Of a DNA stretch of 64,000 bases, positions 1 to 14,303 are shown one piece after another. The DNA comes from Actinobacteria bacterium IMCC19121. Its GTDB lineage: Bacteria; Actinomycetota; Actinomycetes; Nanopelagicales; Nanopelagicaceae. The stretch spans positions 124,001 through 188,000 of the forward strand of contig CP015605.1 of assembly GCA_002284895.1 (NCBI GenBank), in the 5' to 3' direction. A program made the position numbers and the translations under genes. The stretch's first letter is position 1, and every line of letters begins with the position of its first letter. Below the pieces are notes generated by a model that saw nothing but the letters and a program-made list of their open reading frames with translations, ran no database searches and was not told where the DNA came from.

Positions 1-560
1 CTTGTGTACTCCCCATATAAATTGTTTTCAATCACAAAGATGATAGGAAGCTTGAAAATGCTCGCCATATTTAATGTTTCATGGAATGCACCAATATTTG
101 TAGAGCCATCTCCGAAAATAGTTAGCGCTACTGAATCATTTTTCTTAAGCTTTGCAGCAAGGGCTACTCCTGCAGCTACAGGCAAACCTGCTCCAACAAT
201 TGCAAATGTTGGCATTAGTCCGACAGAAGCATCCATTAGGTGCATTGATCCACCCATGCCACCAGAACAACCAATTACTCGTCCACAAATCTCCCCAAGT
301 ACGCCCTCGGGCGAAACTCCTAAGGCTAAAGCGGCAGCATGTCCACGATATGTGCAGGTAACCACATCAGTTGGTCTTAAGACGCTTGCGATTCCAACTG
401 AGACTGCTTCCTGTCCATTAGCTAAGTGTGTGCTTCCGCGAACATGACCGTCGTTATAAAGTGTTTGAATACTCTCTTCAACTGCTCGAATCTCAAGCAT
501 TCTTTCAAGACGTCCTAGCTCGGTATTGAGTGCTTGGCGCCTTACAAGTGATGTTGTCAT
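1..560 (-). CDS. 2-oxoacid dehydrogenase E1 component, alpha subunit (3' end beyond window)
   Basis: Translating the minus strand from the ATG at 560 gives 186 codons with no stop before the edge, so the C-terminus is missing. The thiamine-diphosphate motif is complete: GDG at residues 150-152 and the closing ENN at 178-180. HLANGQEA and YRGHA blocks are typical of the pyruvate/acetoin/branched-chain E1 alpha family. Its start overlaps the E1 beta stop as ATGA, and the two subunits form a heterotetramer in this family. With a lipoyl carrier it would decarboxylate a 2-oxoacid. The substrate cannot be read from the sequence. Any E2 would have to lie past position 1. Confidence 0.93.
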   Translation of the reverse strand, partial: MTTSLVRRQALNTELGRLERMLEIRAVEESIQTLYNDGHVRGSTHLANGQEAVSVGIASVLRPTDVVTCTYRGHAAALALGVSPEGVLGEICGRVIGCSGGMGGSMHLMDASVGLMPTFAIVGAGLPVAAGVALAAKLKKNDSVALTIFGDGSTNIGAFHETLNMASIFKLPIIFVIENNLYGEYT

Positions 561-1567
561 GACTTAAATCCTTCCCACCATGGTGCTGGACATTTACCAG
601 TTTTTAAGAGAGCTGTAATTTGAGATACAACGTATTCAGGGCTAGGTAAATAACGCTTTTCTAGCTCTTGAGCGTAAGGAATGGGTGCATCCGGGGAAGT
701 TATCCGATGGGGCGGCGCTTTCAATTGTCCCCAAAGCTGAGAAACTACTTCAGAAGATATTTCAGTTCCCCACCCACCAGAATAAGAACTTTCTTCAACA
801 ACTACCAAGCGCCCAGTCTTTGCAACACTCTTCATTACCGTTTCCTTATCCCACGGAATCAAGGTTTGTAGATCAATTATCTCTGCTGACCATTCACTTT
901 GTGATTCCATAGCAGCCCTTGCAGTATGCACAGTGCTACCGATTGCAACAATTGTTACATCTGTACCTTGAGAGACAACATTTGCCTTGCCAATTGGAAT
1001 GATTCCTGCTTCACCAGTTACAACTTCACCGCGCTCACCGTAGAGAGCCTTATGTTCCAAGACAACAACTGGATCATTACTCCTAATGGCACTTCTTAAA
1101 AGTCCATACATTGACTGGGGACTTGAAGGAATCACCAGGCTGATGCCAGCATTTCCCCTAAACCATTGGTCCAATATTTGTGAATGTTGGCACCCAAAAC
1201 CTAAGCCAGCACCTGCAGCAGCACGAATGGTTAACGGAACCTCATATGCCCCTCTTGATAAGTAGCGATAGAAGGCACCTTGTGTTGTTAACTGGTCGAG
1301 GGCAACACCAATGAATTCGATAAACATCATTTCTACTACAGGGCGCATGCCCATAGCTGCCGCTCCAACCCCTGCTCCAAGAAAGGCCATCTCTGATATC
1401 GGGGTATCAATAACTCGCTCTTCGCCAAATTTTTCAATCAATCCTTCTGTTGCTTTAAATGGTCCACCAGAACCAATATCTTCTCCCATTAAGAAAACAG
1501 TTGGATCGCTCTCGAGTTCATCTGAAAGTGCTTGAATCACTGCTTGGCGAGTTCGCATTACTGTCAT
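557..1567 (-). CDS. 2-oxoacid dehydrogenase E1 component, beta subunit
   Basis: The 336-aa product has the usual length and blocks of E1 beta proteins: MGEDIG near residue 27, an RVIDTPISE stretch near 51, and a C-terminal transketolase-like domain carrying VVVEESSYSGGWGTEI. It completes the thiamine-diphosphate site with E1 alpha. The start overlaps the upstream muconolactone-isomerase-like gene by ATGA and its stop overlaps E1 alpha by ATGA, so all are translated from one mRNA starting at the VOC gene. The substrate may be pyruvate, acetoin, a branched-chain or a sugar-derived 2-oxoacid. The neighbourhood argues for a dedicated catabolic role rather than the housekeeping pyruvate dehydrogenase. 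Confidence 0.92.
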   Translation of the reverse strand: MTVMRTRQAVIQALSDELESDPTVFLMGEDIGSGGPFKATEGLIEKFGEERVIDTPISEMAFLGAGVGAAAMGMRPVVEMMFIEFIGVALDQLTTQGAFYRYLSRGAYEVPLTIRAAAGAGLGFGCQHSQILDQWFRGNAGISLVIPSSPQSMYGLLRSAIRSNDPVVVLEHKALYGERGEVVTGEAGIIPIGKANVVSQGTDVTIVAIGSTVHTARAAMESQSEWSAEIIDLQTLIPWDKETVMKSVAKTGRLVVVEESSYSGGWGTEISSEVVSQLWGQLKAPPHRITSPDAPIPYAQELEKRYLPSPEYVVSQITALLKTGKCPAPWWEGFKS

Positions 1568-1860
1568 TTCAGGTCTCCGTATTTCTTTGGGTCATTTGGG
1601 TGATCGGCAAGGGGCCAAATCTCAACCTCTAACCAGGGGAAAAAAGGTAAACTCGAAATTGCTGAATGTAGCTCTGTTGCATTGGGTGCAACCCAAATTC
1701 CAACATTAGATTTTTGGCCTGTCCTGCGCCATATCTTCTTTATTACGCCAGTTGCTGCTAATTCTGCAGCTCGTGCACTTTCTTCCTTAACTAATTGAGT
1801 TAGTAAGTCCTTATCTCCATCGGGTGGAAACTTATTTGTTATGTGCACCATAAATTCCAT
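1564..1860 (-). CDS. Muconolactone delta-isomerase (CatC)-like small protein
   Basis: This 98-aa protein matches the ferredoxin-like muconolactone isomerase family in size (about 90-100 aa) and pattern: an N-terminal FMVHITNKFP strand, a KEESARAAEL helix, an IKKIWRRTG strand and a closing PFFPWLEVEIWPLADHPND segment. CatC isomerises muconolactone in the beta-ketoadipate pathway, but no other aromatic-degradation gene is present, so a related lactone or enol substrate is as likely. It sits 2 nt after the VOC gene and overlaps E1 beta by 4 nt. Starts at 1860 or 1851 (second Met) are both possible. Confidence 0.75.
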   Translation of the reverse strand: MEFMVHITNKFPPDGDKDLLTQLVKEESARAAELAATGVIKKIWRRTGQKSNVGIWVAPNATELHSAISSLPFFPWLEVEIWPLADHPNDPKKYGDLK

Positions 1861-1862
1861 TT

Positions 1863-2336
1863 TTATTCGCCCCTATAATCGCTAAATGATTTCGAGCTTT
1901 GAATTAATTCCACTCTGACGCCATCTGGGTCAATCATATAAATTGCCCGCCCGCCTTTATTAGGCCCCATTGTGGGTGTTACCGGTTTTGAAACACTCTT
2001 GACTCCCTTAGCAGTAAGGATTTCGTACCATGCTTCAACATCATCAACAAAAAAAGCAATATGTGCAATTCCAGGATTAGCATTTCCGTGATCTATAGAC
2101 TTCAAGTCAACATTTCCATACTCTAAAAGCTCAAGAAAGACATCTACACCTGGCAACTTTAAAATTGTTGCATTCAAATCTACTTCTGGATATCCAGTAA
2201 GTACGCCAATGTATTCGGCTTGAGGGTTCCAAGAAAAAACTTCTTCGAAGCCAAGAAGGTCCTTATAGAATTTGGTTGACTCGCGCATTGAGCGCACGGA
2301 TATTCCCATGTGATGCGCCTTCGTTATTTGAGCCAC
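1863..2336 (-). CDS. VOC-superfamily (glyoxalase/dioxygenase fold) protein
   Basis: The 157-aa protein has two beta-alpha-beta-beta-beta modules: HHMGISVRSMRESTKFY at the N-terminus and GIAHIAFFVDDVEAWYEIL in the second half, ending with YMIDPDGVRVELIQ. Candidate metal ligands are the His of HHMGIS, the Glu of FLELLEYG, the His of IAHIAF and the Glu of VELIQ. This is the usual set of lyases, epimerases and dioxygenases of this fold; the reaction cannot be told. The start codon is GTG, with AGAGGG upstream. It is the first gene of the operon leading to E1 alpha and lies directly behind an 18-bp LacI-type operator. Confidence 0.85.
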   Translation of the reverse strand: MAQITKAHHMGISVRSMRESTKFYKDLLGFEEVFSWNPQAEYIGVLTGYPEVDLNATILKLPGVDVFLELLEYGNVDLKSIDHGNANPGIAHIAFFVDDVEAWYEILTAKGVKSVSKPVTPTMGPNKGGRAIYMIDPDGVRVELIQSSKSFSDYRGE

Positions 2337-2384
2337 TAAAGAAAGCCCTCTCTTTTCGGTGCATTGCCTACCTTAACTGTGAGC

Positions 2385-2424
2385 AGACTATTGGAAGGGT
2401 TAATTTTAGTCAACCGATTGACTA
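2385..2424 (-). promoter_or_regulatory. Promoter with LacI-type operator upstream of the VOC/E1 operon
   Basis: The inverted repeat TAGTCAACCGATTGACTA occupies 2407-2424 with the central CpG typical of LacI-family sites. On the minus strand its arm supplies a TTGACT -35 box (2413-2408), followed after 17 nt by TAGTCT as -10 (2390-2385). A repressor bound here would cover the -35. The same 18 bases occur at 8830-8847. The site lies between the lacI-type gene and the VOC gene, so that regulator is the obvious candidate to bind it. Confidence 0.75.
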
Positions 2425-2432
2425 GTCAAGTT

Positions 2433-3473
2433 TTACCTCAAATGAGGGGAGGATGACTCACGAATGGTCAGCGTTGGAAGATCACTCACGACCAAATTGG
2501 TTAGTGAACCCCCATTCATGACTCTGACCAGTAGATCCACAGCCTGCATCCCCATCTCAATAGTCGGAAGATTCACCGTTGTTAGGGAGGGAGTGAGGTA
2601 GTTTGCAATTGGGCTATCGTGCAATGCAACAACGCGTACATCCTCTGGAATCTTGACTGAAAGCTCGTGTGCAGCTCTCAGGAAGCCAATACCCATCATA
2701 ATTGTTGAAGTAAAGATTGCATCTGGCAGTACTTTCTTACTCAGAAGTTCAACTCCGACTTTTCGCCCATCCTCCATACCCCACGATGCAACTTCAATAC
2801 TTTGGTGTTTAAGTCCAAGTTTCTCGGCAGCCATTTCAAACCCTTTTTTGCGACGTTGTGATGTCTCAATATATTGGGGCCCAAATATGCCAGTAATTGT
2901 TTTCGTTCCATATTGGGAAAGATGTTGAACTGCTAGCTCTGCGCCAAGTTCATCTTTTACGATTACGCTGGCAGAAGCCCCTCTCACTTTTCTATTGATC
3001 ATAACTACGGGTTCGTGGTGATTTAAGATTTCATTTTTCAAAAATGAGTCTGAAAGGGTTCCTGATGCAATTAAAAGTCCATCGACTTGACCTCTCTGCA
3101 ATAAATCCGCAAAAGTCTTTTCGGAGTTTCCTTCCGCATGATCGCCAAGTAATACTCCGTAGCCAAGCTCTGAACAGCGCTTTTCTACTCCAGAAATAAT
3201 CGCTGAATACATTGGGTTTGAGAAGTCAGGTAATAGAAGGCCAATCATTTGAGTACGAGCAGTTTTAAGCATTCGTGCAGCAGAATTAGCTCGATATCCC
3301 AATACTTCAACAGCATCAAGAACACGTTTTCTCGTAGCTAAGGTGGCGCTTGCTTTTGGATCATTATTTACAATTCTTGAGACAAGACTGGGATCGACTT
3401 TGGCAATTCGGGCTACATCACGAATTGTTGCTCTTGCGGGCTTTGTGTTGGCAGAGTCCTTGTTTGATGCCAT
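2433..3473 (-). CDS. LacI-family transcriptional regulator
   Basis: The 346-aa product has an N-terminal helix-turn-helix and hinge (ATIRDVARIAKVDPSLVSRI at about 15-34, then NSAARML) followed by a periplasmic-binding-protein-like effector domain (TQMIGLLLPDFSNPMYSAI onward) ending with LTIRES. This is the full length and order of LacI/GalR regulators, which usually respond to a sugar or sugar acid. Adjacent operators at 2407-2424 and 8830-8847 probably define its regulon. It lies downstream of the two SDR genes and could be cotranscribed with them or use a TATAAT-like box at 3527-3522. The effector is unknown. Confidence 0.93.
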   Translation of the reverse strand: MASNKDSANTKPARATIRDVARIAKVDPSLVSRIVNNDPKASATLATRKRVLDAVEVLGYRANSAARMLKTARTQMIGLLLPDFSNPMYSAIISGVEKRCSELGYGVLLGDHAEGNSEKTFADLLQRGQVDGLLIASGTLSDSFLKNEILNHHEPVVMINRKVRGASASVIVKDELGAELAVQHLSQYGTKTITGIFGPQYIETSQRRKKGFEMAAEKLGLKHQSIEVASWGMEDGRKVGVELLSKKVLPDAIFTSTIMMGIGFLRAAHELSVKIPEDVRVVALHDSPIANYLTPSLTTVNLPTIEMGMQAVDLLVRVMNGGSLTNLVVSDLPTLTIRESSSPHLR

Positions 3474-3521
3474 TTTGCCCCCAAATCTGCTCTATATCTC
3501 GCACTTTTCTGCCCTGCTGTA

Positions 3522-3527
3522 ATTATA
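3522..3527 (-). promoter_or_regulatory. Possible -10 box of the lacI-type gene
   Basis: The minus strand reads TATAAT here, about 50 nt before the regulator's ATG, in the 84-nt gap after the SDR gene. I see no clear -35. A 12-bp perfect palindrome AAAGCGCGCTTT lies just upstream (3543-3554) and could be an operator or part of a hairpin. Confidence 0.3.
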
Positions 3528-3557
3528 GTCTGAATGATAGTAAAAGCGCGCTTTACG

Positions 3558-4310
3558 TTAGTAGAGCGTAAACCCACCAGAGACGTTAATTGTTGCTCCA
3601 GAAATAAAACTAGCGGCATCAGATGCTAGAAATACAACGACTGATGCCACCTCCTCCGGAGTGCCAAAGCGTTTGAGCGGGGTTGCCTCTTCCATCTGCC
3701 TTCTGGCTGAATCGCTTAAGCCTTTGCGCATCATGGCGGTATCGATTAAACCTGGCGCAATAGTATTAACAGTAATTCCATATGGACCATAGGCTTTAGC
3801 TAAACCCCTGGCCATTGTTGTGACAGCGCCTTTGGTAGTTGCATAGGGCAATCGAGTCGACATACCGCCTGACAGCCACGCAACTGATGACATAAGAATA
3901 ATTTTTCCGCCCTTATCCTGCTCTTTCATTATGTTTGCTGCGGTCCTTGCGAAGAAAAAAGTTGCATTTATGTTTACTCCCATATGACTCTGCCATTGAT
4001 CTTCAGTCACATCATCTATTTCAAGAGCCTCTAAAACAGCAGACATATGAATGAGTGCATCCAAGCGAGTGTGCCTTGCCATAGAAAGTTCTATTACTCT
4101 AGAGGCTGAAGCTGCATCAGTGACAGCAACTGGGATGATAGTTATTTGATCTTGGGGTAAACCTTTTGCAAGCTCTTGCAGAGCCTCTGCATTCTGATCG
4201 ACACAAACAACATGTGCGCCATGCTCAACAAGTAACTTTACAGAGGCTGATCCAATTCCGCCCCCAGCGCCAGTCAAAATGATTACACGATTATTTAATT
4301 CCATTGTCAT
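3558..4310 (-). CDS. Short-chain dehydrogenase/reductase (SDR), first of a pair
   Basis: A classical 250-aa SDR: the nucleotide-binding TGAGGGIG motif lies at about residues 13-20, a Ser in MSSVAWLSG, the catalytic YATTK (Tyr-x-x-x-Lys), and a C-terminal ISGATINVSGGF. It should oxidise or reduce a hydroxyl/keto group with NAD(P). Sugar-acid dehydrogenases and 3-oxoacyl reductases share this architecture, so the substrate is open. It follows the second SDR gene by 2 nt in the same operon. Starts at 4310 or 4304 are both plausible. Confidence 0.9.
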   Translation of the reverse strand: MTMELNNRVIILTGAGGGIGSASVKLLVEHGAHVVCVDQNAEALQELAKGLPQDQITIIPVAVTDAASASRVIELSMARHTRLDALIHMSAVLEALEIDDVTEDQWQSHMGVNINATFFFARTAANIMKEQDKGGKIILMSSVAWLSGGMSTRLPYATTKGAVTTMARGLAKAYGPYGITVNTIAPGLIDTAMMRKGLSDSARRQMEEATPLKRFGTPEEVASVVVFLASDAASFISGATINVSGGFTLY

Positions 4311-4312
4311 GC

Positions 4313-5158
4313 TTATTTGCTATCTAGAAATCGCTTATTAGATTCTTTGGCCTCCTGCGAAGCTTGATCCACATAAAAGTCGTAAGCGGCAGTTAGCCCT
4401 CCATCAACTGGAACGGCAACACCCGTCATCCCTAGTGAATCTGGGCTTGCTAAAAAGTCCACTACAGCAGCAACATCGTCGGGCTGCAATAATCTTCCCG
4501 CCGGATGTCTTTGAGTTTTGACTTCAAGAAAACCTTGTGGGTCTGGGGCTGCTTCAACGTGACGCATGAAAAATGGAGTCATAATCGAACCTGGGCATAC
4601 CGCATTAACGCGAATACCTTGTCGAGCATGATCAACTGCTGCCGACTTCATGAGCATGAGTCCTGCACCTTTGGATGATGCATAGGCGGCAAGATTTTGT
4701 TCAGCCATGTGCCCAACGCTGCTATTAACAAAAACAACAGTACCTCCTCCTCTTGCTGCCATCCGAGGTATTACATGCCTGAGTGCGCGAGCTGGTCCAA
4801 ACACGTTTGTTTCAAAAATATTCTGCCAGTCTTTTTCTTCAAGTGTCACAACGCTTCCGATAACAAGAACCGCTGCACAAAAAACCACAGAGTTTGGATC
4901 AGCACCGTAGAGTGAACGGCATTTCTCCAATACCTCTACCCACACCTTTTCGCTTCCCGCATCGGCAGTCACATGTGAATATCTGCCACTTGCGTCTTGA
5001 GGCATTGTCGGAACTACATCGGATCTATCGATGCCTATAACATTCACGCCTCTGCGCACCATTCTGGCTACCGTGGCTGCTCCAACTCCTGAACTAGAGC
5101 CAGCAATAATTGCTACATCTGGGCCCTGCTGGTTATTCGAACTTAAGTTATCTGCCAT
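4313..5158 (-). CDS. Short-chain dehydrogenase/reductase (SDR), second of a pair
   Basis: This 281-aa SDR has the cofactor loop AGSSSGVGAATV near residue 19, an acidic residue after the second strand (GIDRSD) that favours NAD, a Ser in VNSSVGHM, the catalytic YASSK and a C-terminal AVPVDGGLTAAYDFY. It is longer than its neighbour through a C-terminal tail. The pair may act on successive hydroxyls of one substrate or form a hetero-oligomer. It is the first gene of its operon, with a promoter and a LacI-like palindrome at 5236-5264. Confidence 0.9.
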   Translation of the reverse strand: MADNLSSNNQQGPDVAIIAGSSSGVGAATVARMVRRGVNVIGIDRSDVVPTMPQDASGRYSHVTADAGSEKVWVEVLEKCRSLYGADPNSVVFCAAVLVIGSVVTLEEKDWQNIFETNVFGPARALRHVIPRMAARGGGTVVFVNSSVGHMAEQNLAAYASSKGAGLMLMKSAAVDHARQGIRVNAVCPGSIMTPFFMRHVEAAPDPQGFLEVKTQRHPAGRLLQPDDVAAVVDFLASPDSLGMTGVAVPVDGGLTAAYDFYVDQASQEAKESNKRFLDSK

Positions 5159-5235
5159 GAAATGAACTCCTAACTCGCATTTCCTTTAATCTCGTGCCTG
5201 TCGCCCCATGAAAGTCCAACTGAATTTATCCCCAT

Positions 5236-5264
5236 AGGCTATTGGGCTCAAACGATTGAGTCAA
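5236..5264 (-). promoter_or_regulatory. SDR-operon promoter with a second type of LacI-like palindrome
   Basis: On the minus strand TTGACT (5264-5259) and TAGCCT (5241-5236) are 17 nt apart, forming a promoter for the SDR genes. The spacer carries the imperfect inverted repeat CTCAAACGATTGAG (5247-5260) with a central CpG. It resembles the 18-bp operators in its ACGATTGA core but differs in the outer arms, so it may be a weaker site for the same regulator or a site for a different one. The gap 5159-5377 holds nothing else I can name beyond this and the IclR promoter. Confidence 0.5.
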
Positions 5265-5340
5265 TGCTCGGCTAGAATTTTTGATAAGAGTATTCAAAGA
5301 GAGATAAATTAGTAGATTCTTTGGGGGGAAATATTGCCTA

Positions 5341-5370
5341 TTGATAGATCCAATCTCACCTGGCTATAGT
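5341..5370 (+). promoter_or_regulatory. Promoter of the IclR gene, probably leaderless
   Basis: TTGATA (5341-5346) and TATAGT (5365-5370) are separated by 18 nt. The ATG at 5378 begins 7 nt after the -10 box, so the transcript would start at or next to the start codon. Confidence 0.6.
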
Positions 5371-5377
5371 TTGGATT

Positions 5378-6157
5378 ATGCCTTCACGAGAGACTTCGCT
5401 TGGATCCATTCAGAGGGCATTCTTGGCGCTTTCAAAAATTGCAGAATGCCCAAGCCCGATGACACCCAAAGAGCTTGCTCAAGAAATAGACACTCCGTTA
5501 CCCACTACTTACCATCTTTTAAAAACATTGGTAGACCTTGGCGCATTGGTGAAATTAGAGAGAGAGGGTTACCGATTAGGCCCTGCTATAGGTGCGTTGT
5601 CAGACTCATACTTAGAACAAGGCGAACCTCTAAGAATCCTTGAACCCGCGGTACGGGACCTTGCAAAAATCACTGGGGAAACTACATATATGACAGCCTG
5701 GCGCAGTGGCAAAATTGAAGTTGTGGTCACTGTCTCAAGTTCACGTCCAGTACGAGTCGCACCGCTCGGGCATAGCTCACAAAGTTACGCGCATGCCAGG
5801 GCCTCTGGAAAAGTAATGCTTGCATTTGCTCGGCCATCACTTCGGGAAGAGTACTTGTATAACAACCCACTTGAGAAAATAACGCCAGTGACAATTGATA
5901 ACTCAGAGATTCTCGAAGGAGAGTTAAAAGAAATTGTTAAACGAGGATACGCGACTGACTTAGAAGAATATGCCCCTGATGTTTCTTGTTTATCTGTTCC
6001 AGTCTTAGCTTCTGGACATTTAATTGCGGCTTTGACTGTCTCGGCACCCACTATCCGGTTTAATACTGAGTTTGACACATTACTAAGCCAAATTTGGGCT
6101 ACAAAAGGACAAGCTGAAAGACTGTTAATTGGTAGTGAAGTAGCGAACACAGTTTGA
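5378..6157 (+). CDS. IclR-family transcriptional regulator
   Basis: The 259-aa protein has an N-terminal winged helix (SIQRAFLALSKIAE, then LPTTYHLLKTLVDLGAL as recognition helix and a YRLGPAIGAL wing) and a C-terminal effector domain with the family's YAHARASGKVMLAF, RGYATDLEEYAPDVSCLSVPV and LIAALTVSAP blocks. IclR proteins typically bind small carboxylates or sugar acids. It is divergent from the SDR operon and 10 nt before the DUF1349 gene. It is the second regulator of the island, and its targets are not apparent from sequence. Confidence 0.93.
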   Translation: MPSRETSLGSIQRAFLALSKIAECPSPMTPKELAQEIDTPLPTTYHLLKTLVDLGALVKLEREGYRLGPAIGALSDSYLEQGEPLRILEPAVRDLAKITGETTYMTAWRSGKIEVVVTVSSSRPVRVAPLGHSSQSYAHARASGKVMLAFARPSLREEYLYNNPLEKITPVTIDNSEILEGELKEIVKRGYATDLEEYAPDVSCLSVPVLASGHLIAALTVSAPTIRFNTEFDTLLSQIWATKGQAERLLIGSEVANTV

Positions 6158-6167
6158 GAGTGAATAT

Positions 6168-6749
6168 ATGAACAAAGATCCACTCCAATGGAATTCTGGC
6201 ACTTGGACTCGTGAACCGCTCTCTGTAGAAATCCAAGACGGAAAGCTCCTTGCCAAAGCAGCCGAAGGCAGTGATTGGTGGCGAAATACTTCATATAACT
6301 TTGTTCACAATGATGGTCATGCCTTATTACATGATTTTGCAGAAGGTACAGCTATGGAAGTCACCTTCCGTTTGAACTACACACAGAATTTCGATCAGTG
6401 TGGAATTTTTCTCTATGCCGGTGATCTAAATTGGATAAAGGCAGCAGTTGAACAATCAGATGGAGTTCCACAGCTTGGCGCAGTTGTTACGATAAATAAC
6501 TCTGATTGGTCAATGGCCCCCGTGCCGGAATGGTTCGGCAAAGAGGTAACGATTCGTGCAAGTCGTGAAGGAAATGCGATTACCGTGAGAGCAAAGACTG
6601 ACGGAGATTTTAGAATGGTCCGTGTAGCGCCGATCGATCAGAATTTGAATTGGAGAGCTGGACCATATCTTTGTGCCCCAACTGGACCGAACTTAATTGG
6701 TGAGTTCACCTCATGGACTATGGGTGATGCCGATAATTCCTTGCACTAG
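6168..6749 (+). CDS. DUF1349 (concanavalin-like beta-sandwich) protein
   Basis: The 193-aa protein has the pattern of the DUF1349 family: DWWRNTSYNFVHNDGH, then MEVTFRLNYTQNFDQCGIFLYAG, NWIKAAVEQSDG and a final GPYLCAPTG. These fold as a jelly-roll related to concanavalin-like lectins and glycosidase accessory domains. Their activity is not established. There is no signal peptide, so it is probably cytoplasmic. It lies 10 nt after the IclR gene and is probably cotranscribed with it, which suggests a link to carbohydrate use in this island. Confidence 0.75.
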   Translation: MNKDPLQWNSGTWTREPLSVEIQDGKLLAKAAEGSDWWRNTSYNFVHNDGHALLHDFAEGTAMEVTFRLNYTQNFDQCGIFLYAGDLNWIKAAVEQSDGVPQLGAVVTINNSDWSMAPVPEWFGKEVTIRASREGNAITVRAKTDGDFRMVRVAPIDQNLNWRAGPYLCAPTGPNLIGEFTSWTMGDADNSLH

Positions 6750-6766: not shown

Positions 6767-7633
6767 CTAGGTAGTTGACTCTGGATAAACCCATTTCTCT
6801 CCTGCCAAGCTGGCAAGCAAGCGATCCCTCATGAGGATCGTCTCAGAGACATTATCGCAACGATTCATACCGCCCCAGTCAATCCAAACATATTCAACTG
6901 CAAGAAAGTCTTGGTACTTATTTTCAGCTAATACTGCGACAACAGATTCGTAATCGATAGTGTTTTCTTTCATTGAACACTGGCCGGCATCAACCCGACC
7001 ACCACGGACTTGGACATGTCCGGCAAAAGGAGCAAGACGATCAATATCTGTTTGCTTGTACCCAGGGGCAATGAAGTGAGTGTAATCAAGAGTTAATTTA
7101 AGATCGGGTGCGTACTCAAGTAGTTTGAGAACATCATCAGGTGATGCCGCAACCGATCCCATATGGCACTCAACACTAAAGCGCAAACCCTCTGCAGTTG
7201 CCTTGGCTGCTCTCCACTGCAACTCTTGTCCTGCAAGCTCTAATGAAGCATCATGACCAAGAGTTGGGAAATCGATGCCAGGAACCATTGTTATCCCGGG
7301 ACCTTTAATGCGTAGAGTGAAATCTAGAAGATCATCAAATAATTTCCGGGAAGCGATGCGCTCATCTTCATCTGGATGATTAGGCGCAAGAACTTCAAAA
7401 GTTGTCCAAGGAATACAAAAGACATCACTTATCTCTAAGCCTCGGCGGCGAATGGATTTTCCAATAGTTTGCGCAGCTGAAGCAATATCACTTCGGATAT
7501 GCTCTGGGCGAATATGTGAGCGGTTACCCATGAGGGCTAAATCAAAGCCCTCGAAGCCCATCCCCGCTATTAAGTCAATCGTGGCCTCATGGTTAAGCAT
7601 TGGAAAACTGTGATCTCCACATGCAAGCTTCAT
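6767..7633 (-). CDS. Sugar phosphate isomerase/epimerase-like TIM-barrel protein
   Basis: The 288-aa protein fits the xylose-isomerase-like TIM-barrel (AP endonuclease 2) family. Candidate metal ligands are the Glu of FSVECHMGS, the Asp of TLDYTHF, the His of GHVQVRGG and the Glu of FLAVEYVWIDW, each at the end of a strand as in inosose/tagatose epimerases. It probably isomerises or epimerises a sugar or sugar acid; dehydratases of this fold also exist. It is on the same strand 30 nt downstream of the enolase-superfamily dehydratase gene and likely cotranscribed. Confidence 0.8.
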   Translation of the reverse strand: MKLACGDHSFPMLNHEATIDLIAGMGFEGFDLALMGNRSHIRPEHIRSDIASAAQTIGKSIRRRGLEISDVFCIPWTTFEVLAPNHPDEDERIASRKLFDDLLDFTLRIKGPGITMVPGIDFPTLGHDASLELAGQELQWRAAKATAEGLRFSVECHMGSVAASPDDVLKLLEYAPDLKLTLDYTHFIAPGYKQTDIDRLAPFAGHVQVRGGRVDAGQCSMKENTIDYESVVAVLAENKYQDFLAVEYVWIDWGGMNRCDNVSETILMRDRLLASLAGEKWVYPESTT

Positions 7634-7663: not shown

Positions 7664-8800
7664 TTAAACCCTAAATAAGATTTTATCTGGGTCCACACAT
7701 TTTTGAGTTTTTATCCATTCAAAATTAACGAGATCGCCAAATCCAGGTTTTTCACTCAAGGGCTCCATCAGCCCATCAACTCTAATTTTTGGTTGTTCTA
7801 AACTATCTGCGTATGGATCAACCCCAGTCCAAGGAACTCCCCACTCGATAGGAACATTTGTAAATCCCCACGCACCGAAAACTTGACTGTGGACATGGGC
7901 AAACATGTGGGCGGCAAAACTAACTCCTGCTTTTAAGCACTCGTCAACTATTCTCCTACCCCCAGTAATTCCTCCCATACAGGTTAAGTCAATTCGAATG
8001 ACATCTACGGCCGACTTTGCAATCAAAGCCTCAGGGTAGTAAATCCCACCTTGCTCATCTCCCATTGCAATCGGAATTTTTGTACTCGACCTAAGTTCAG
8101 CAACTACCTGTGCATTTCCAGGAGGGAAAATATCTTCAAACCAACCTAGATCTACCCCATCCAACATGTTCAAAAGCTCCATTGCCCCTGCTACATCATT
8201 AAATATCCAGGCGGCATCACAACCAATCCACGCATCTGGTGCAGCTTTTCTAGCAGCTTTTAATCTTTCAGCTGTTGCTTGATTGTTGATGCCTACAGGT
8301 GCTTTAAATCTGCGCCAGCCTTGTGAATAAAGATCTTGCACTTGATCAAAAACTTCCTCAGGGCCCATTGTGGCTGGTGGATACCCAATGATCGCTGTTG
8401 CTGGCATTGGAGATCTGTTGCCCTTGAGAAATTTGGAAATCGACTGTCCGGCTTCCTTAGATCGGGCATCCCACAACGCTAAGTCAGCTAATGACAGGGC
8501 TCGAAGTCCTACACCCGCAGAATGAGAGGCAAGACTACGGCGTTGCGCAACCCTAAAAGTTGACTCAACATCTTTGGTTAATGTCCCCACATAAATATTG
8601 CGTAGAGTTTTTCGAATGTGCTCAGCAACAGCACCATCTCGGCTGAGTGTGAAAGCCCATCCCTCTATGCCTGAGTCCAAAGTGATTCTTACAACTACAA
8701 ATTCACGGGTGCGCATAATCCAATCTCCAAAGACCACCGGAGCCGGCAGCTCGGCTTCAACCGTAGCTACACTTAAATCAGTGACCTTTGACTCAGACAT
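7664..8800 (-). CDS. Mandelate racemase/muconate lactonizing enzyme-family sugar-acid dehydratase
   Basis: The 378-aa enolase-superfamily protein has the metal ligands Asp195 (GCDAAW), Glu222 (WFEDIF) and Asp248/Glu249 (MGDEQGG), with His298 in AAHMFAHVH as a base on the other side of the site. The usual Lys-x-Lys on the second barrel strand reads Arg164-Phe-Lys166. The family removes water from aldonic acids to give 2-keto-3-deoxy acids; the substrate is unassigned. I start it at the ATG at 8800, because a TATATT box ends 6 nt before it. An upstream ATG at 8818 would lie between the -35 and -10 boxes. Confidence 0.85.
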   Translation of the reverse strand: MSESKVTDLSVATVEAELPAPVVFGDWIMRTREFVVVRITLDSGIEGWAFTLSRDGAVAEHIRKTLRNIYVGTLTKDVESTFRVAQRRSLASHSAGVGLRALSLADLALWDARSKEAGQSISKFLKGNRSPMPATAIIGYPPATMGPEEVFDQVQDLYSQGWRRFKAPVGINNQATAERLKAARKAAPDAWIGCDAAWIFNDVAGAMELLNMLDGVDLGWFEDIFPPGNAQVVAELRSSTKIPIAMGDEQGGIYYPEALIAKSAVDVIRIDLTCMGGITGGRRIVDECLKAGVSFAAHMFAHVHSQVFGAWGFTNVPIEWGVPWTGVDPYADSLEQPKIRVDGLMEPLSEKPGFGDLVNFEWIKTQKCVDPDKILFRV

Positions 8801-8870
8801 ATAATGAATATAATGCACCTAAATCCAATTAGTCAACCGATTGACTAAAATTCCAAGCTTGCTGTATCGT
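8801..8870. promoter_or_regulatory. Divergent promoter pair sharing one LacI-type operator
   Basis: The operator TAGTCAACCGATTGACTA (8830-8847) is identical to the copy at 2407-2424. Each arm provides a -35 box for one direction. Rightward: TTGACT 8841-8846, 18 nt, TATCGT 8865-8870, then AAGGA and the MaoC ATG. Leftward: TTGACT 8836-8831, 18 nt, TATATT 8812-8807, then 6 nt to the dehydratase ATG, a leaderless start. One bound repressor would block both transcripts. Confidence 0.8.
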
Positions 8871-8907: not shown

Positions 8908-9393
8908 ATGACTCGTGAATTCGATGCGCGGTCAACTCGCTATGGTCGCTTTTTTGATGAGTTTGAAATTGGTGATATCTATAATCATTGGCCTGGTAAA
9001 ACCATTACCGAATCTGAAGATCATCTTTATTGTTTATTAACCATGGCTGGAAGCCCATTGCATATTGACAGTAATTATGCAAAGACTGAGATGGTTGATG
9101 GCAAGAACCTTGTTGTTGGAACTTATATTTATGCGTTATTGACTGGCATGTCCGTAAATGACATTTCTGGAAAAGCCATCGCGAGTTTGGGTGTTAAGGA
9201 GTTACAGCACTTACTTCCCGTATTCCACGGGGACACCATTTATGCAAGTACCGAGATTCTTGATAAGCGTGTATCAAAGAGCAAACCTACTCAGGGGATT
9301 TTGACGGTAAAAACTAAGGGTACAAATCAACACGGAAAAATAGTATGTACTTTTGAGCGCTCTGTAATGCTGCCATTGAAAGTGGCCGATTGA
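8908..9393 (+). CDS. MaoC-like (R)-specific enoyl-CoA hydratase, mesaconyl-CoA hydratase type
   Basis: The 161-aa single hot-dog domain opens with RYGRFFDEFEIGDIY and has a hydratase segment MAGSPLHID (His about residue 50). The second half (NDISGKAIASLG, PVFHGDTIYASTEI, a closing RSVMLP) resembles mesaconyl-CoA (2-methylfumaryl-CoA) hydratases more than generic MaoC proteins; that judgement is from memory of the family. Such enzymes interconvert methylmalyl- or citramalyl-CoA with mesaconyl-CoA. It is the first gene of the plus-strand operon behind the operator, and its stop overlaps the next start as TGATG. Confidence 0.85.
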   Translation: MTREFDARSTRYGRFFDEFEIGDIYNHWPGKTITESEDHLYCLLTMAGSPLHIDSNYAKTEMVDGKNLVVGTYIYALLTGMSVNDISGKAIASLGVKELQHLLPVFHGDTIYASTEILDKRVSKSKPTQGILTVKTKGTNQHGKIVCTFERSVMLPLKVAD

Positions 9394-10538
9394 TGAGCAA
9401 TGTGAAGCACCAAGGACCTCTTGTCGGTTTAAAGGTAATTGACTTGGCTACAGTGGTCGCCGGCCCAGGTGTAGCAAAATATTTTGCCGACTACGGTGCA
9501 GATGTTATAAAGGTTGAAAGGCCGTCTGGAGATTCAACCAGATCCATGGGTTGGACTCAACCCGGTGAATCCGACTCTTTGTGGTGGAAGCTTGTAAATC
9601 GCGGAAAGCGCTCACTTGTCCTTGATTTAAAGCAAACTTCAGATTTAGCGGTGCTAAAAGAATTGATTGACTCGGCAGATTTGCTGATTGAAAATATGCG
9701 TCCAGGTAAAATTGAGCAACTTGGTTTAGATCCAGCTGAGTTGATTAAAAGGAATCCTAAGTTAGTTGTATTGCGGGTTTCAGGATTTGGACAGTCAGGG
9801 CCATATGCGCAAAAGCCTGGTTTTGCAACAATTGCCGAAGCTTTATCTGGTCTTTCAGGTTTATTGGGCGAACCTGATGGGGGGCCTTTACTGCCACCCA
9901 TTGCCCTTACCGATGAAGTAACTGCGCTCGTGGGTTCCTTCTCTGCGATGATGGCAATCTTTCATGCCAAACAAACAGGGCAAGGACAAGTTGTTGAAAT
10001 AGATTTAGTTAACTCAGTGCTCCAAATCATGGGTCCCTTACCGGCGGCATGGGATTCAATGGGTTACTTACAGCCAAGGTTAGGGTCAAGCATTCCTTAT
10101 TCAATTCCCCGTGGTACTTATCAATGTTCTGACGGGGTATGGGTGGCACTTTCAGCATCGGCAGAATCAGTTGCACGCAGATTGATTGAAACTGTAGGTG
10201 GAGGTGGGGATCCTAGATTCATGTCCTTCCAGGCGAGATTTGAAAATAGAGAAGCTCTAGAAGAATTGACGCGGAATTGGATTAGTTCAAGACCCTCAGC
10301 AGAAGTAATTAGCATTATTGATTCTGCCGATGCTGCAATCGCCCCGGTATACAGCATGCAACAGGTTATTGAAGATCCTCATTTCATCGAGCGCGAGAGT
10401 TTCACTCGAGTTGATGGAATTTTAATGCAAAATTTAGTAGCTCGAATGTCTAAAACACCGGGGAAGATTAATTCTGTTGGTCCTAAACTTGGGGAACACA
10501 CAGAAGAGATTGTTGACGAGTTAAATGCCAAGAAGTGA
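9393..10538 (+). CDS. Class III CoA-transferase (CaiB/BaiF family), first copy
   Basis: The 381-aa protein has the family III layout: LVGLKVIDLATVVAGPGVAK, GADVIKVERPSGDSTR, SLVLDLK, LLIENMRPG and VVLRVSGFGQSGPYA, with the catalytic Asp at about residue 174 (PPIALTDEVTAL). Members move CoA between carboxylic acids through an aspartyl-CoA mixed anhydride. It is closest in pattern to intermolecular transferases such as formyl- or succinyl-dependent enzymes; donor and acceptor are unknown. I use the ATG at 9393 (TGATG overlap with MaoC), though a TTG at 9390 is in frame. The next gene starts 14 nt before its end. Confidence 0.9.
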   Translation: MSNVKHQGPLVGLKVIDLATVVAGPGVAKYFADYGADVIKVERPSGDSTRSMGWTQPGESDSLWWKLVNRGKRSLVLDLKQTSDLAVLKELIDSADLLIENMRPGKIEQLGLDPAELIKRNPKLVVLRVSGFGQSGPYAQKPGFATIAEALSGLSGLLGEPDGGPLLPPIALTDEVTALVGSFSAMMAIFHAKQTGQGQVVEIDLVNSVLQIMGPLPAAWDSMGYLQPRLGSSIPYSIPRGTYQCSDGVWVALSASAESVARRLIETVGGGGDPRFMSFQARFENREALEELTRNWISSRPSAEVISIIDSADAAIAPVYSMQQVIEDPHFIERESFTRVDGILMQNLVARMSKTPGKINSVGPKLGEHTEEIVDELNAKK

Positions 10539-11481
10539 TGTAAATCTAAAAAGAGCAGTGCTTGCAGTTCCCGGTTCTAGTGAAAAAATGATCACTAAAG
10601 CTCGAACAATTGATGTTGATGAGATTTTTCTAGATCTTGAGGACTCTGTCTCTCAAACTGAAAAATCACTTGCTCGGAATAAAGTCATAGACGCTTTATT
10701 AGAGGGTAACTTCAAAACTCCACAAATTGCTGTACGAGTCAATGAACAGATTACAAGTGTAGGAATTGAAGATGTTTCAGCCATAGTTCTACGGGCTGGA
10801 AAAAGTATTAACTCATTGATTATTCCTAAGGTAGAGACTGCAGACCAAGTTTTTGACTTAGATAAGAGATTGTCTGATTTAGAGCAATCTGCAAACTTAA
10901 CTATTGGATCGATCAAGATCCAAATTCAAATTGAATCAGCACTAGGGCTTTCAAATATCACAAGCATTGCAGGAGCATCTAAGCGGATTACTTCCCTCAT
11001 ATTTGGTCCTGGAGATTTTGCTGCAAGTCTTGGAATGCATGTTATCAATATTGGAGAGAACCCCATTAATTATCCAGGTACTGATGCCTATCACTACGTC
11101 TTATTTTCGATTTTAGTTGCCGCAAGGGCCAATGGGCTCCTTGCAATTGATGGGCCATACTCGGACATTTCCAATACCGGAGGACTAAAAAATCGATCTA
11201 ATCTTTCAGCGTCTCTCGGCTACGATGGAAAGTGGGTCATCCATCCAGGACAAATTGAAACGGTAAATGTGGCGTTCACTCCGAGCCAAAAGTCTTTCGA
11301 TCTGGCTGCAAAAGTGATGAATCACTTTATTGAAGAGGCTAATTCAAAAGAGCAAAGTGGGGCCTTCCTTTTTGAGGGCAAGATGATTGATGAAGCTTCA
11401 AGAAAGATGGCAGAAGGGATATACCTAAAGGGAATCGCTGGCGGACTAAAACCATCAATAGAAGGAGAGAAAAATGGCTAA
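10525..11481 (+). CDS. HpcH/HpaI-CitE family lyase, malyl/methylmalyl/citramalyl-CoA lyase-like
   Basis: The 318-aa TIM-barrel protein has the CitE-family blocks in order: AVLAVPGSSEKM, EIFLDLEDSV (acidic pair about 39-40), IIPKVET, IQIQIESALGL, LIFGPGDFAASLGM, AIDGPYSDI and GKWVIHPGQIE. The last two are characteristic of malyl-CoA/beta-methylmalyl-CoA lyases, which split a 3-hydroxy-dicarboxyl-CoA into an acyl-CoA and glyoxylate or pyruvate, reversibly. It overlaps the CoA-transferase gene by 14 nt and the second MaoC gene by 8 nt. A hydroxymethylglutaryl-type substrate, as proposed for mycobacterial CitE homologues, is an alternative. Confidence 0.88.
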   Translation: MPRSDVNLKRAVLAVPGSSEKMITKARTIDVDEIFLDLEDSVSQTEKSLARNKVIDALLEGNFKTPQIAVRVNEQITSVGIEDVSAIVLRAGKSINSLIIPKVETADQVFDLDKRLSDLEQSANLTIGSIKIQIQIESALGLSNITSIAGASKRITSLIFGPGDFAASLGMHVINIGENPINYPGTDAYHYVLFSILVAARANGLLAIDGPYSDISNTGGLKNRSNLSASLGYDGKWVIHPGQIETVNVAFTPSQKSFDLAAKVMNHFIEEANSKEQSGAFLFEGKMIDEASRKMAEGIYLKGIAGGLKPSIEGEKNG

Positions 11482-12007
11482 TCATAAAGCAGTGCTTGGG
11501 CGTTTCTATGAAGATTTTATTGTTGGTGACACTTTTGAACATCCATTTGGTAGGACTATTAGTGAGACTGACTGCACGTGGTTTACACAATTAACTTGTA
11601 ATACCAATCAGAATCATTTCAACGCTCATTTAGCTAATTCTAACCCTGTTTCAAATGGAAAAATAATTGTTAATTCAGGCTTGACAGTTGCGATGATTTT
11701 AGGAATATCTGTTATTGATATGAGTCAAAATGCAGTTGCAAATCTGGGTTGGACAGATATTAAACTTACTCATCCTGTATATGTCGGGGATACTTTATAT
11801 GCTGAGAGCATTTGTACTGGTGTCCGTGAATCATCTTCAAAACCAGAGATGGGCATCATTTCGATGTTTACCCGCGGATTAAATCAAGATGGAATTGAGA
11901 TTGTCACTTGGAATAGAAGTGTAATGATTCCAAAAAGAAGTTCGGGAATTGGTCAAAACTATTTTCCTACTCCAATTTCTGGACCAATTGAAAGTCGGCT
12001 GAATTAA
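11474..12007 (+). CDS. MaoC-like enoyl-CoA hydratase, second copy
   Basis: The 177-aa single hot-dog protein is paralogous to the MaoC protein at 8908: both share GRF(Y/F)(E/D)(D/E)F, a TxSE start of helix, the IDMSQNAVANLG/NDISGKAIASLG segment, (V/F)xxGDT(L/I)YAES and a closing RSVMxP. In the usual hydratase segment it reads TCNTNQNHFNAH instead of MAGSPLHID, so its His sits differently and its substrate may differ. Together the two could be the C1- and C4-CoA hydratases of a mesaconyl-CoA route, or two halves of a heterodimer. It overlaps the lyase gene by 8 nt and precedes the second CoA-transferase by 2 nt. Confidence 0.85.
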   Translation: MANHKAVLGRFYEDFIVGDTFEHPFGRTISETDCTWFTQLTCNTNQNHFNAHLANSNPVSNGKIIVNSGLTVAMILGISVIDMSQNAVANLGWTDIKLTHPVYVGDTLYAESICTGVRESSSKPEMGIISMFTRGLNQDGIEIVTWNRSVMIPKRSSGIGQNYFPTPISGPIESRLN

Positions 12008-12009
12008 AA

Positions 12010-13230
12010 ATGACGACAAGTCTTGCCCCGCTAAGTGGGTTGAGAATTATCGAAGGTTCAGCATTTGTGGCTGCTCCACTAGGTGGATTAACTCTGGCAC
12101 AACTGGGCGCTGATGTAATTAGGTTTGACCAAATAAATGGAGGCTTAGACTTTCACCGTTGGCCCGTAACAGAAGATAATCAAAGTCTTTTTTGGATTGG
12201 TTTAAACAGAGGAAAGCGATCAATTGAGATTGATATGAGATCAGCAGCTGGTAGAGAACTTATTTCTGACCTGATTACAGCGCCAGGTCGAGATGCTGGT
12301 ATTTTTCTTACTAATTTACCTATGAAGGATGAGCTCAGCTATGAAGCCCTTAAAGAAAAAAGACCTGATTTAATTATGGTCTCTCTTACTGGAAACTATG
12401 ACGGATCCAGTGAAGTTGACTATACGGTTCATCCCTCATTTGGCTATCCCTTGATAACAGGCCCTGCAGGGACGAATATTCCTGTAAATGCAGTCTTACC
12501 GACTTGGGACCTAATTCTTGGAAATATGGTTGCCATAGCAATTCTTGTTGCTGAAAGAAAGCGCAGAGAATCAGGGGAAGGAGAGTTTATCCAAATCGCC
12601 CTTTCGGATGTTGCACTTTCAGTTGTTGGTGCACTTGGGCGACTCTCTCAAGCCTATTTAGGTAGTGAGAAAGTTTCTGCAGACGGTAATTTTCTCTACG
12701 GCGCCTTTGGCTCGAACTTCCTCACAAAAGATAACGTTCAAATCATGATAGTCGGACTCACTCCGAGGCAATGGAGTTCATTGAAGGATGCTCTTCAGAT
12801 TCACGATTCCCTATCGAAAATAGAGAGCCAGTTCAAAGTCAACTTAAATCTCGAAGCGGACCGATTTAAAATGAGACGAGAAATCTCGAATTTAATCGCA
12901 TCCATCATTAAGGAGAAGTCGCTATCAGAGTTAAGTAATGTATTTTCTAGTTTTAATGTTAGCTGGTCAAAATATCAAACTTTTCAAGAGCTCCTAAATA
13001 ATGACCACCGTGCCTCGGAGAGTAATCCAATTTTCAACCTTAGTGAACAGCAAGGTATCGGAGATCTTCCAAATATTGCATCCCCTATTCGATTTACAAA
13101 TGTACCCAATTTAGGAGCACAATCTGCACCACTTCTAGGTGCTAATACTGAGGAAATTTTAAAGGAATTATTGAATATGAGCGGTGCTGGAATACAAGAC
13201 TTAAAACAAAAGAAAATCATCAACCAATAG
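12010..13230 (+). CDS. Class III CoA-transferase, 2-methylfumaryl-CoA isomerase (Mct)-like
   Basis: The 406-aa protein has LRIIEGSAFVAAPLGGLTLA, GADVIRFD, GLDFHRWPVT and LFWIGLNRGKRSIEID, and the predicted catalytic Asp167 in AVLPTWDLILGN. From memory these blocks match mesaconyl-CoA C1-C4 CoA transferase (2-methylfumaryl-CoA isomerase), which shifts CoA within one molecule, better than ordinary CaiB proteins. It differs clearly from the first CoA-transferase of this operon (381 aa), so it is not a recent tandem duplicate. The lipoyl-domain gene follows after 20 nt. Confidence 0.82.
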   Translation: MTTSLAPLSGLRIIEGSAFVAAPLGGLTLAQLGADVIRFDQINGGLDFHRWPVTEDNQSLFWIGLNRGKRSIEIDMRSAAGRELISDLITAPGRDAGIFLTNLPMKDELSYEALKEKRPDLIMVSLTGNYDGSSEVDYTVHPSFGYPLITGPAGTNIPVNAVLPTWDLILGNMVAIAILVAERKRRESGEGEFIQIALSDVALSVVGALGRLSQAYLGSEKVSADGNFLYGAFGSNFLTKDNVQIMIVGLTPRQWSSLKDALQIHDSLSKIESQFKVNLNLEADRFKMRREISNLIASIIKEKSLSELSNVFSSFNVSWSKYQTFQELLNNDHRASESNPIFNLSEQQGIGDLPNIASPIRFTNVPNLGAQSAPLLGANTEEILKELLNMSGAGIQDLKQKKIINQ

Positions 13231-13250: not shown

Positions 13251-13490
13251 ATGATCACCAAAGTAAAAATGCCAAGGTTGGGTGAAAACGTTAACTCGGT
13301 ATTTATTGTCGAACTAAAGTGCGAACCTGGCCAGCAAATAAATGCTGGAGAGATACTTGTTTCCGTAGAAACGGACAAGGCCACTGTAGATGTCGAGTCT
13401 CCTGTTGCCGGCAAAATTGTTGAGTTTTTAGTAAAAATTGATGAAGAAGTTCAGCCTGGTGTGCCCTATGTCATTATTGAAACTGCGTAA
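13251..13490 (+). CDS. Free-standing lipoyl-domain protein
   Basis: The 79-aa protein is a single biotinyl/lipoyl beta-barrel. The tight turn reads VETDKATVDVESP, with the DKA lysine typical of lipoylated E2 domains rather than the MKM of biotin carriers. There is no peripheral-subunit-binding domain and no acyltransferase domain, so it would be a mobile lipoyl carrier, by analogy with glycine cleavage H protein. The E1 alpha and E1 beta genes at the start of the window, under the same operator, are its likely partners. An E2 core would still be needed and is not in the window. Confidence 0.88.
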   Translation: MITKVKMPRLGENVNSVFIVELKCEPGQQINAGEILVSVETDKATVDVESPVAGKIVEFLVKIDEEVQPGVPYVIIETA

Positions 13491-13526: not shown

Positions 13527-14303
13527 ATGCAACTTATAAGCTCGAATAATCTCAAAGTTGTTGTTGATTTGAATAATGGTGGGCGAATATCCTCTTTAAA
13601 ATTCCATGGTCACGAATTTGTTATTCCAAATAATGGAAAAGTCCTTCATTGGGGCTGGTATCCAATGGTCCCGTGGGCAGGAAGAATTAACAAGGGAGAA
13701 TTTCTCGGCCCATCAAGCAAGATTGAATTGCCAACCGATTTGATGCCCCCTCATGCGATCCATGGATTTGGCCACTCAGTAGTTTGGCAAGATGAGGGTG
13801 AAGGAATTTCTAGTTGTGAATTTGAAGGTGACTTTGCTGGCGCAGGAGCAGTTCAGGAAATCAAAGTGAGTGAAGATACTTTGCACTACAAATTACAGTA
13901 CGTGCCGAACTCATGTGAACTGCCTGCTTGGCTAGGATTGCACACTTGGTTTCCATGGACGATTGAATCAAGTCAGAGAGCAACAATTAACTTTAGTGCG
14001 AACAATATGTTGGAACTCTCAGCCGATGGAATACCGAGCGGAGAATTAGTCCCAGCAAGTGAAGGCCCCTGGGATGACACATTTACAAACCTCAACAGCG
14101 TCCCAAAAATCACTTGGCCCGGGATTGCTTCGCTTGAGATTAAGTCAAATGTTGATTGGTGGACTATTTACACAAAAGATAAAGCAGTTTTCTGCGTTGA
14201 ACCGCTAAATGCCCCACCTGATGCGATTCGAATTGGTCGGCTAATTGGAAATACCCACAATTTAGAAGTTACTTTTTCCTTTAGTCAGGACTTTATTAAA
14301 TAA
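13527..14303 (+). CDS. Aldose 1-epimerase (galactose mutarotase-like) family protein
   Basis: The 258-aa protein has the mutarotase blocks: WYPMVPWAGRINKGEF, PPHAIHGFGHSVVW (candidate catalytic His), LGLHTWFPW and FCVEPLNAPPDAIR (candidate catalytic Glu). It should interconvert anomers of a free sugar. It is the last gene of the plus-strand operon, 36 nt after the lipoyl gene, and ends 8 nt from the convergent polyprenyl synthase gene. Its presence supports a sugar or sugar acid as the starting substrate of the island. Confidence 0.87.
   Translation: MQLISSNNLKVVVDLNNGGRISSLKFHGHEFVIPNNGKVLHWGWYPMVPWAGRINKGEFLGPSSKIELPTDLMPPHAIHGFGHSVVWQDEGEGISSCEFEGDFAGAGAVQEIKVSEDTLHYKLQYVPNSCELPAWLGLHTWFPWTIESSQRATINFSANNMLELSADGIPSGELVPASEGPWDDTFTNLNSVPKITWPGIASLEIKSNVDWWTIYTKDKAVFCVEPLNAPPDAIRIGRLIGNTHNLEVTFSFSQDFIK

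Follow-up and report, generated by a model that had tools for sequence, protein, structure and literature searches.

A conserved Mct-containing operon within a putative LacI-controlled sugar-catabolic cluster of a freshwater actinobacterium

The operon and its enzymes

The stretch of DNA analysed here, referred to as the window, comprises 64,000 nucleotides of Actinobacteria bacterium IMCC19121 and corresponds to positions 124001–188000 of its 1.51 Mb single-contig genome. Five open reading frames (ORFs) encoded on the forward strand between positions 8908 and 13230 (Table 1) either overlap their neighbours by 4–14 bp or leave a 2-bp gap, and profile searches assign them, in order, to the families MaoC (PF01575/PF19315), CoA_transf_3, HpcH_HpaI/CitE, MaoC, and CoA_transf_3. 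The original prediction had recognized these overlapping or abutting genes and their families, as well as the blocks AIDGPYSD, GKWVIHPGQIE, and AVLPTWD, all of which are found in the window proteins, but it overlooked both a sixth gene, located 20 bp 3' of the fifth and encoding a free-standing lipoyl carrier, and the wider cluster surrounding the operon. The resulting order, MaoC1–CT1–CitE–MaoC2–MCT–lipoyl, is not a product of chance, because it recurs in three related actinobacterial loci, while the wider cluster recurs in five rhizobial genomes. Therein, ordinary enzyme families occur in an undescribed and conserved combination that includes a relative of Mct, the coenzyme A (CoA)-transferase of the 3-hydroxypropionate bi-cycle.

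The two TRANSFERASES of the operon, MCT and CT1, are placed in different parts of the CoA_transf_3 tree. In a tree of 79 rows, MCT falls within a clade of 72 rows (support 100/99) that contains the Mct enzymes of Chloroflexota and Accumulibacter, with CT1 far outside. MCT is approximately 45–50% identical to known Mct and approximately 45% identical to the solved Mct enzymes (7xkg/8apq, E about 1e-124). Residue functions were mapped from the C. aurantiacus enzyme (PMC9813914): the catalytic Asp165 and the carboxylate clamp Arg47/Tyr136 are kept in MCT as D167, R50, and Y138, the equivalents of Asp135 and Asn100 are also conserved, and these five residues are invariant across 93 of the 93 Mct homologues compared. 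Tree, structural matches, and residues thus bear out the earlier view that the second transferase is Mct-like, and the phylogeny that had been proposed as a check groups it with Mct, not with ordinary CaiB enzymes. MCT is therefore predicted from its sequence to work like Mct, although its score against the curated model TIGR04253 is 444.8 bits, under the cut-off of 725, and the CoA-cork residues Phe101 and Arg104 are not kept, being replaced by Leu103 and Lys106 (Phe101 is fixed in the 13 Chloroflexota/Accumulibacter rows, where Arg104 is variable). Mct homologues are widespread, with at least 564 candidate loci encoding a relative. In the case of CT1, the best curated model is SucGlutTfs (succinate–glutarate CoA-transferase; 208.7 bits, cut-off 750), the Mct model reaches only 50 bits, and the catalytic Asp is present without equivalents of Arg47 and Tyr136. 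CT1 is, on these grounds, an ordinary family III CoA-transferase and presumably acts intermolecularly.

The CitE protein finds its best structural matches in the malyl/beta-methylmalyl-CoA lyases 5ugr (E 6e-46) and 4l9y (E 6e-45), scoring 159 bits with RipC_Ccl (cut-off 375). Following the catalytic residues described for the malyl-CoA lyase RsMCL (PMC3832036), it retains the Mg ligands Glu141/Asp168 plus the equivalents of Glu44/Asp45, Arg76, and Asp299, and the aligned catalytic stretches read LEDSV, VRVN, IESALG, GPGDFAAS, and MIDEAS. In the tree, it is distant from the lyases of Chloroflexota and Accumulibacter (26–28% identical) and groups weakly (86/86) with lyases of Thermoleophilia (38–41% identical) that adjoin a Meh-like double MaoC and Mct. 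The previous assignment as a malyl-CoA-type lyase is therefore upheld by the catalytic residues and by this weak grouping. Moreover, the trios of lyase, Meh-like MaoC, and Mct, observed in five Thermoleophilia loci (L037, L042, L043, L049, L065), suggest by their gene content that modules converting mesaconyl-C1-CoA into acetyl-CoA and pyruvate may be common in heterotrophic Actinobacteria.

Two MaoC hydratases matching Mch in the Protein Data Bank (PDB) are indeed present, as originally predicted, but MaoC1 (161 aa) and MaoC2 (177 aa) are single-hotdog proteins, unlike the double-hotdog Mch of approximately 350 aa, and the best-scoring model for both is RipB/Ich, below its cut-off of 340 (148.6 and 153.9 bits, respectively). 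MaoC1 best matches the Chloroflexus beta-methylmalyl-CoA dehydratase (8hgn, E 5e-26), and MaoC2 matches Mch 4e3e/8hgn. Both lie outside the Mch and Meh-like clades of the tree, where MaoC1 and its rhizobial counterparts form a clade with 100/100 support. The nearest outside relative of MaoC2 (54% identical) adjoins Mct and a CitE-like ORF in locus L046.

Operators and the wider cluster

The operon belongs to a single cluster that spans the first 13.5 kb of the window plus approximately 9 kb upstream (locus L106). The palindrome TAGTCAANCGNTTGACTA, which like LacI-family operators has CG at its centre, occurs at three genomic sites (two mismatches or fewer), all within the cluster, whereas the reversed control yields 0. 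Two copies lie in the window (Table 1) and the third precedes the gene of the sugar-binding protein. The copies at the VOC/LacI and MR_MLE/Mct-operon promoters are exactly kept in the related loci L015 and L026, and related operators occur in the rhizobial clusters at the divergent MR_MLE promoter, and three of these clusters have further such sites in the interval that separates the SDR gene from that of the ABC binding protein; altogether, 9 rhizobial sites were observed versus 0.05 expected. Since the operator is shared by the sugar-uptake, VOC/LacI, and Mct-operon promoters, the Mct operon is very probably co-regulated with sugar uptake, presumably through the LacI regulator encoded in the cluster, and the earlier placement of the operon inside a sugar regulon is supported by these strictly local operators. 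A generic promoter and terminator scan gave results at chance level.

Table 1. Features of the cluster in the window (positions counted from its first nucleotide).
Feature	Position	Strand	Evidence or remark
E1 alpha, pyruvate dehydrogenase (PDH)-type, truncated by left end of window	1–560	-	
E1 beta, PDH-type	557–1567	-	PRK09212, 298 bits
Muconolactone delta-isomerase-like protein	1564–1860	-	PF02426, 94.2 bits
VOC (glyoxalase-fold) protein	1863–2336	-	
LacI-type operator, second copy, between VOC and LacI	2407–2424	.	same operator as at 8830–8847
LacI-family regulator, RbsR/CytR-like, presumed operator reader	2433–3473	-	
SDR dehydrogenase	3558–4310	-	
SDR dehydrogenase	4313–5158	-	
IclR-family regulator	5378–6157	+	weak best match BhcR, 97 of 350 bits
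DUF1349 protein	6168–6749	+	
AP_endonuc_2 TIM-barrel protein	6767–7633	-	PF01261, 70.9 bits
MR/MLE enolase-superfamily protein, sugar-acid dehydratase-like	7664–8818	-	PF13378/PF02746; best PDB 5olc, galactonate dehydratase
LacI-type operator TAGTCAACCGATTGACTA, divergent MR_MLE/Mct-operon promoter	8830–8847	.	exact in window, L015, L026
MaoC1, enoyl-CoA hydratase/dehydratase with a single hotdog, conserved together with CT1	8908–9393	+	RipB_Ich; PDB 8hgn
CT1, ordinary CoA-transferase of family III, presumably intermolecular	9390–10538	+	SucGlutTfs; clamp missing
CitE-superfamily malyl/citramalyl-CoA-type lyase	10525–11481	+	PDB matches; catalytic residues
MaoC2, single-hotdog hydratase, presumed to hydrate mesaconyl-C4-CoA	11474–12007	+	RipB_Ich; PDB Mch 4e3e/8hgn
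MCT, Mct-family CoA-transferase	12010–13230	+	TIGR04253; PDB 7xkg/8apq; tree; residues
Free-standing lipoyl carrier, 79 aa, ETDKA lipoylation motif	13251–13490	+	PF00364, 60.5 bits
Aldose 1-epimerase-like protein, possible last operon gene, 36 bp after lipoyl gene	13527–14303	+	PF01263, 43 bits

Upstream of the window, the cluster encodes a further SDR, a second MR_MLE protein, a sugar ABC transporter with a binding protein most similar to XylF/ChvE, a lyxose-isomerase-like cupin, and two SMP-30 lactonases. The MR/MLE paralogue (L106:9622–10761) is 45% identical to that of the window, a pairing hinting at two dehydration or isomerization steps, while the cupin (182 aa, L106:4959–5507) matches the D-lyxose isomerase family (PF07385, 32.9 bits). 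BhcR, the weak best match of the IclR-family protein, is the regulator of the beta-hydroxyaspartate cycle. No aldolase or 2-oxo-3-deoxy-acid dehydratase was recognized in the cluster. Presence and absence across the whole genome were judged by single-family searches, which reveal elsewhere an AceE (1372 bits), an AceF-like ORF of 589 aa that carries two lipoyl domains, and an OGDH-like ORF of 1225 aa that matches E1_dh; since the genome holds these separate enzymes, the E1 pair of the cluster is probably a second, dedicated enzyme.

Conservation and distribution

In L015 and L026 all six operon genes are present in unchanged order, and the contig of the third actinobacterial locus, L028, begins inside CitE and carries the last four genes. 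The lipoyl gene follows MCT in all three loci, and a free lipoyl protein is encoded in every rhizobial cluster. The core of the cluster is kept in five genomes of one rhizobial family with 55–68% protein identity: CT1 (57–60%), MaoC1 (57–66%), SDR (66–68%), VOC (61–64%), E1 beta (57–61%), and E1 alpha (62–63%), together with, where found, SMP-30 (52–53%) and the muconolactone-isomerase-like protein (55–56% relative to the L026 homologue), while the LacI proteins are 33–34% identical to that of the window. Mct (49–54% identical) is present in the three of three rhizobial clusters whose contig extends far enough, preceded by a double MaoC and accompanied by an acyl-CoA ligase and a tartrate-dehydrogenase-type gene. 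The rhizobial MaoC1–CT1 pair travels with the sugar transporter, sugar-acid, and E1/lipoyl genes, separately from the double-MaoC–Mct pair.

The cluster is rare. Relatives of MR_MLE with 59–61% identity are carried by 5 of 298 genomes of the rhizobial family of locus L100, and carriers of the cluster include Mesorhizobium sp. LSHC420B00. Otherwise, MR_MLE was seen in 1 of 296 genomes of the phylum, namely that of the window, and in 1 of 289 genomes of the class, namely that of L100. This rare and patchy occurrence suggests spread by horizontal transfer. In a plasmid collection, no close MR_MLE relative was found and the CT1 and MCT matches were only distant. The big tree makes it look likely that actinobacteria and rhizobia recruited Mct independently; since a smaller tree joins both groups weakly (49/74), this is not claimed here. 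The rhizobial clusters border on a second block of genes, which in L124 (positions 950–6573; also found in L045) encodes a tartrate dehydrogenase (527 bits, above cut-off), a fuconolactonase-like amidohydrolase, a VOC protein, two SDRs, and an acyl-CoA ligase. L045 (Mesorhizobium comanense) keeps E1, lipoyl protein, double MaoC, and Mct, and MR_MLE, CT1, MaoC1, and the muconolactone-isomerase-like protein were not found within 10 kb, so that a variant pathway is possible.

A candidate sugar-catabolic pathway and its alternatives

The shared operators, the conserved core, the absence of methylmalonyl-CoA mutase and isocitrate lyase, and the separate AceE lead us to favor, with confidence somewhat short of even, an undescribed LacI-controlled sugar-catabolic pathway of which the five genes constitute the lower half, ending in acetyl-CoA and pyruvate. 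Gene content, shared control, conservation across phyla, and the placement of MCT and lyase in their families, with active-site residues, are observed; from these, we infer the reactions, the direction in which they run, and the chemistry that connects E1 with MCT. The XylF/ChvE-like ABC transporter would import a monosaccharide, which SDRs could oxidize to a lactone; the SMP-30 lactonases would open this lactone to a sugar acid that the MR/MLE enzymes may dehydrate to a 2-oxo-3-deoxy acid. The PDH-type E1 alpha/beta would then decarboxylate a 2-oxo acid onto the free lipoyl protein, followed by transfer to CoA. Together with the muconolactone-isomerase-like protein and the VOC protein, MaoC1 and CT1 could convert this thioester into a mesaconyl-type C5 dicarboxyl-C1-CoA. 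Subsequently, MCT would shift CoA from C1 to C4, MaoC2 would hydrate the C4-CoA to a citramalyl-CoA-type ester, and CitE would split this ester, so that acetyl-CoA and pyruvate are the probable products of these last three steps (Mct, MaoC2, and CitE). A bolder version, somewhat less probable, would be a novel mode of sugar oxidation: a sugar-acid-derived 2-oxo acid would undergo oxidative decarboxylation onto the free lipoyl carrier, and the resulting CoA ester would be remodelled to a branched C5 dicarboxyl-CoA, isomerized by Mct, and split into acetyl-CoA and pyruvate, with pathway and LacI control common to freshwater actinobacteria and rhizobia.

Several observations weigh against this proposal. 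The weak point lies in the middle of the route: no known series of steps evidently leads from common sugars to a C5 dicarboxylate with a methyl branch, and none was derived that uses every conserved gene. An E2 catalytic domain for acyl transfer from lipoyl to CoA is absent from the listed cluster ORFs, which contain only the 79-aa lipoyl protein. Likewise, MCT stays under the TIGR04253 cut-off and has Leu in place of the adenine-stacking Phe101, no CitE was found in the rhizobial cluster regions fetched, and the trees do not clearly unite the MCTs of rhizobia and of actinobacteria as closest relatives. On paper, routes from linear pentoses, hexoses, 6-deoxyhexoses, hexarates, apiose, and 2-C-methylerythritol were also drawn, none of which reaches mesaconyl-CoA with every conserved gene.

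A less favored and rather unlikely explanation takes the operon for a compact form of the second cycle in the 3-hydroxypropionate bi-cycle, the sugar pathway merely supplying glyoxylate and/or propionyl-CoA. All four activities could be encoded by the one operon, the nearest matches of CitE are bifunctional malyl/beta-methylmalyl-CoA lyases, and the best PDB match of MaoC1 is a beta-methylmalyl-CoA dehydratase; moreover, propionyl-CoA, which apiose or methylerythritol breakdown would give, would need another route without methylmalonyl-CoA mutase. Nevertheless, CT1, E1, and the lipoyl protein would be left unexplained, and the original suggestion of a compact Chloroflexus cycle of glyoxylate and propionyl-CoA is not supported: the genes conserved alongside encode a sugar transporter, enzymes of sugar-acid metabolism, and a dedicated E1/lipoyl pair, with which rhizobial MaoC1–CT1 travel, apart from double-MaoC–Mct. 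The genome contains neither isocitrate lyase nor methylmalonyl-CoA mutase, and no source of glyoxylate or propionyl-CoA is shown, no search aimed at other sources having been made.

Next in order, and improbable in our judgement, is another unsymmetrical dicarboxyl-CoA, e.g., from a hydroxylated or hydroxymethyl-branched sugar-derived acid, without mesaconyl-CoA, in which MCT would move CoA between the carboxylates and CitE would release acetyl-CoA and another 2-oxo acid. The sugar context, the conserved E1, the limited identity of MCT to known Mct and its score under the curated cut-off, and the catalytic breadth of the CT1, MaoC, and CitE families are compatible with such a substrate, whereas the invariance of the clamp, Asp135, Asn100, and the catalytic Asp in all Mct homologues compared, the characterized lineage included, argues against it. 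Finally, a degradation of itaconate, mesaconate, or citramalate, in which CT1 would activate the acid with succinyl-CoA, the MaoC proteins would act as itaconyl/mesaconyl-CoA hydratases, and CitE as citramalyl-CoA lyase, is very improbable: RipB/Ich does top both MaoC searches, CitE also matches RipC/Ccl, and Ich hydrates mesaconyl-C4-CoA (PMC12290011), but every score is under the curated cut-offs, the transferase is of family III and not of the Ict type, MCT would be superfluous if mesaconate were activated at C4, and the sugar transporter and operators would be left unexplained.

Relation to known systems and significance

The second cycle of the 3-hydroxypropionate bi-cycle (Mcl–Mch–Mct–Meh in Chloroflexus, partial in Accumulibacter and Kentron) resembles the operon in its Mct-family enzyme, malyl-CoA-type lyase, and two MaoC proteins, whereas the operon differs in its single-hotdog MaoC, a lyase of another branch, the additional CT1 and lipoyl carrier, the LacI sugar regulon, and the E1 partners. 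The Thermoleophilia trio of CitE, double Meh-like MaoC, and Mct (47–51% identical to MCT) brings together the same three activities, although sugar, E1, and lipoyl genes were not found beside it. The itaconate cluster (Ict–Ich–Ccl/RipABC) shares a RipB/Ich-type MaoC, a CitE-type lyase, and a CoA-transferase, the last of another family than in the operon, which in addition contains Mct. Oxidative (non-phosphorylative) sugar-acid pathways share SDR, lactonase, MR/MLE dehydratase, ABC transporter, and LacI, but here they lead on to a PDH-type E1 and to steps with CoA esters. Similarly, pyruvate and 2-oxoacid dehydrogenase complexes share E1 alpha/beta and a lipoyl domain, which in the cluster is free-standing, without an E2 catalytic domain. 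Heterotrophs with Mct-containing partial 3-hydroxypropionate cycles are already known (PMC6593406; PMC9813914). However, no sugar-regulated Mct module with an E1/lipoyl pair was found in the literature searched, nor a described pathway with this gene set, as the original prediction had stated, and a survey of LacI regulons (PMC4052901) does not mention CoA-transferase, mandelate racemase, or Mesorhizobium.

Studies of Mct have so far concerned its role in autotrophic CO2 fixation. In streamlined freshwater bacteria and in legume-associated relatives, it is found here as part of a sugar regulon and linked with a second 2-oxoacid dehydrogenase whose lipoyl carrier is free-standing. If the proposed pathway is correct, it would give sugars an additional way to acetyl-CoA and pyruvate, and would provide testable substrates for a multi-gene cluster.

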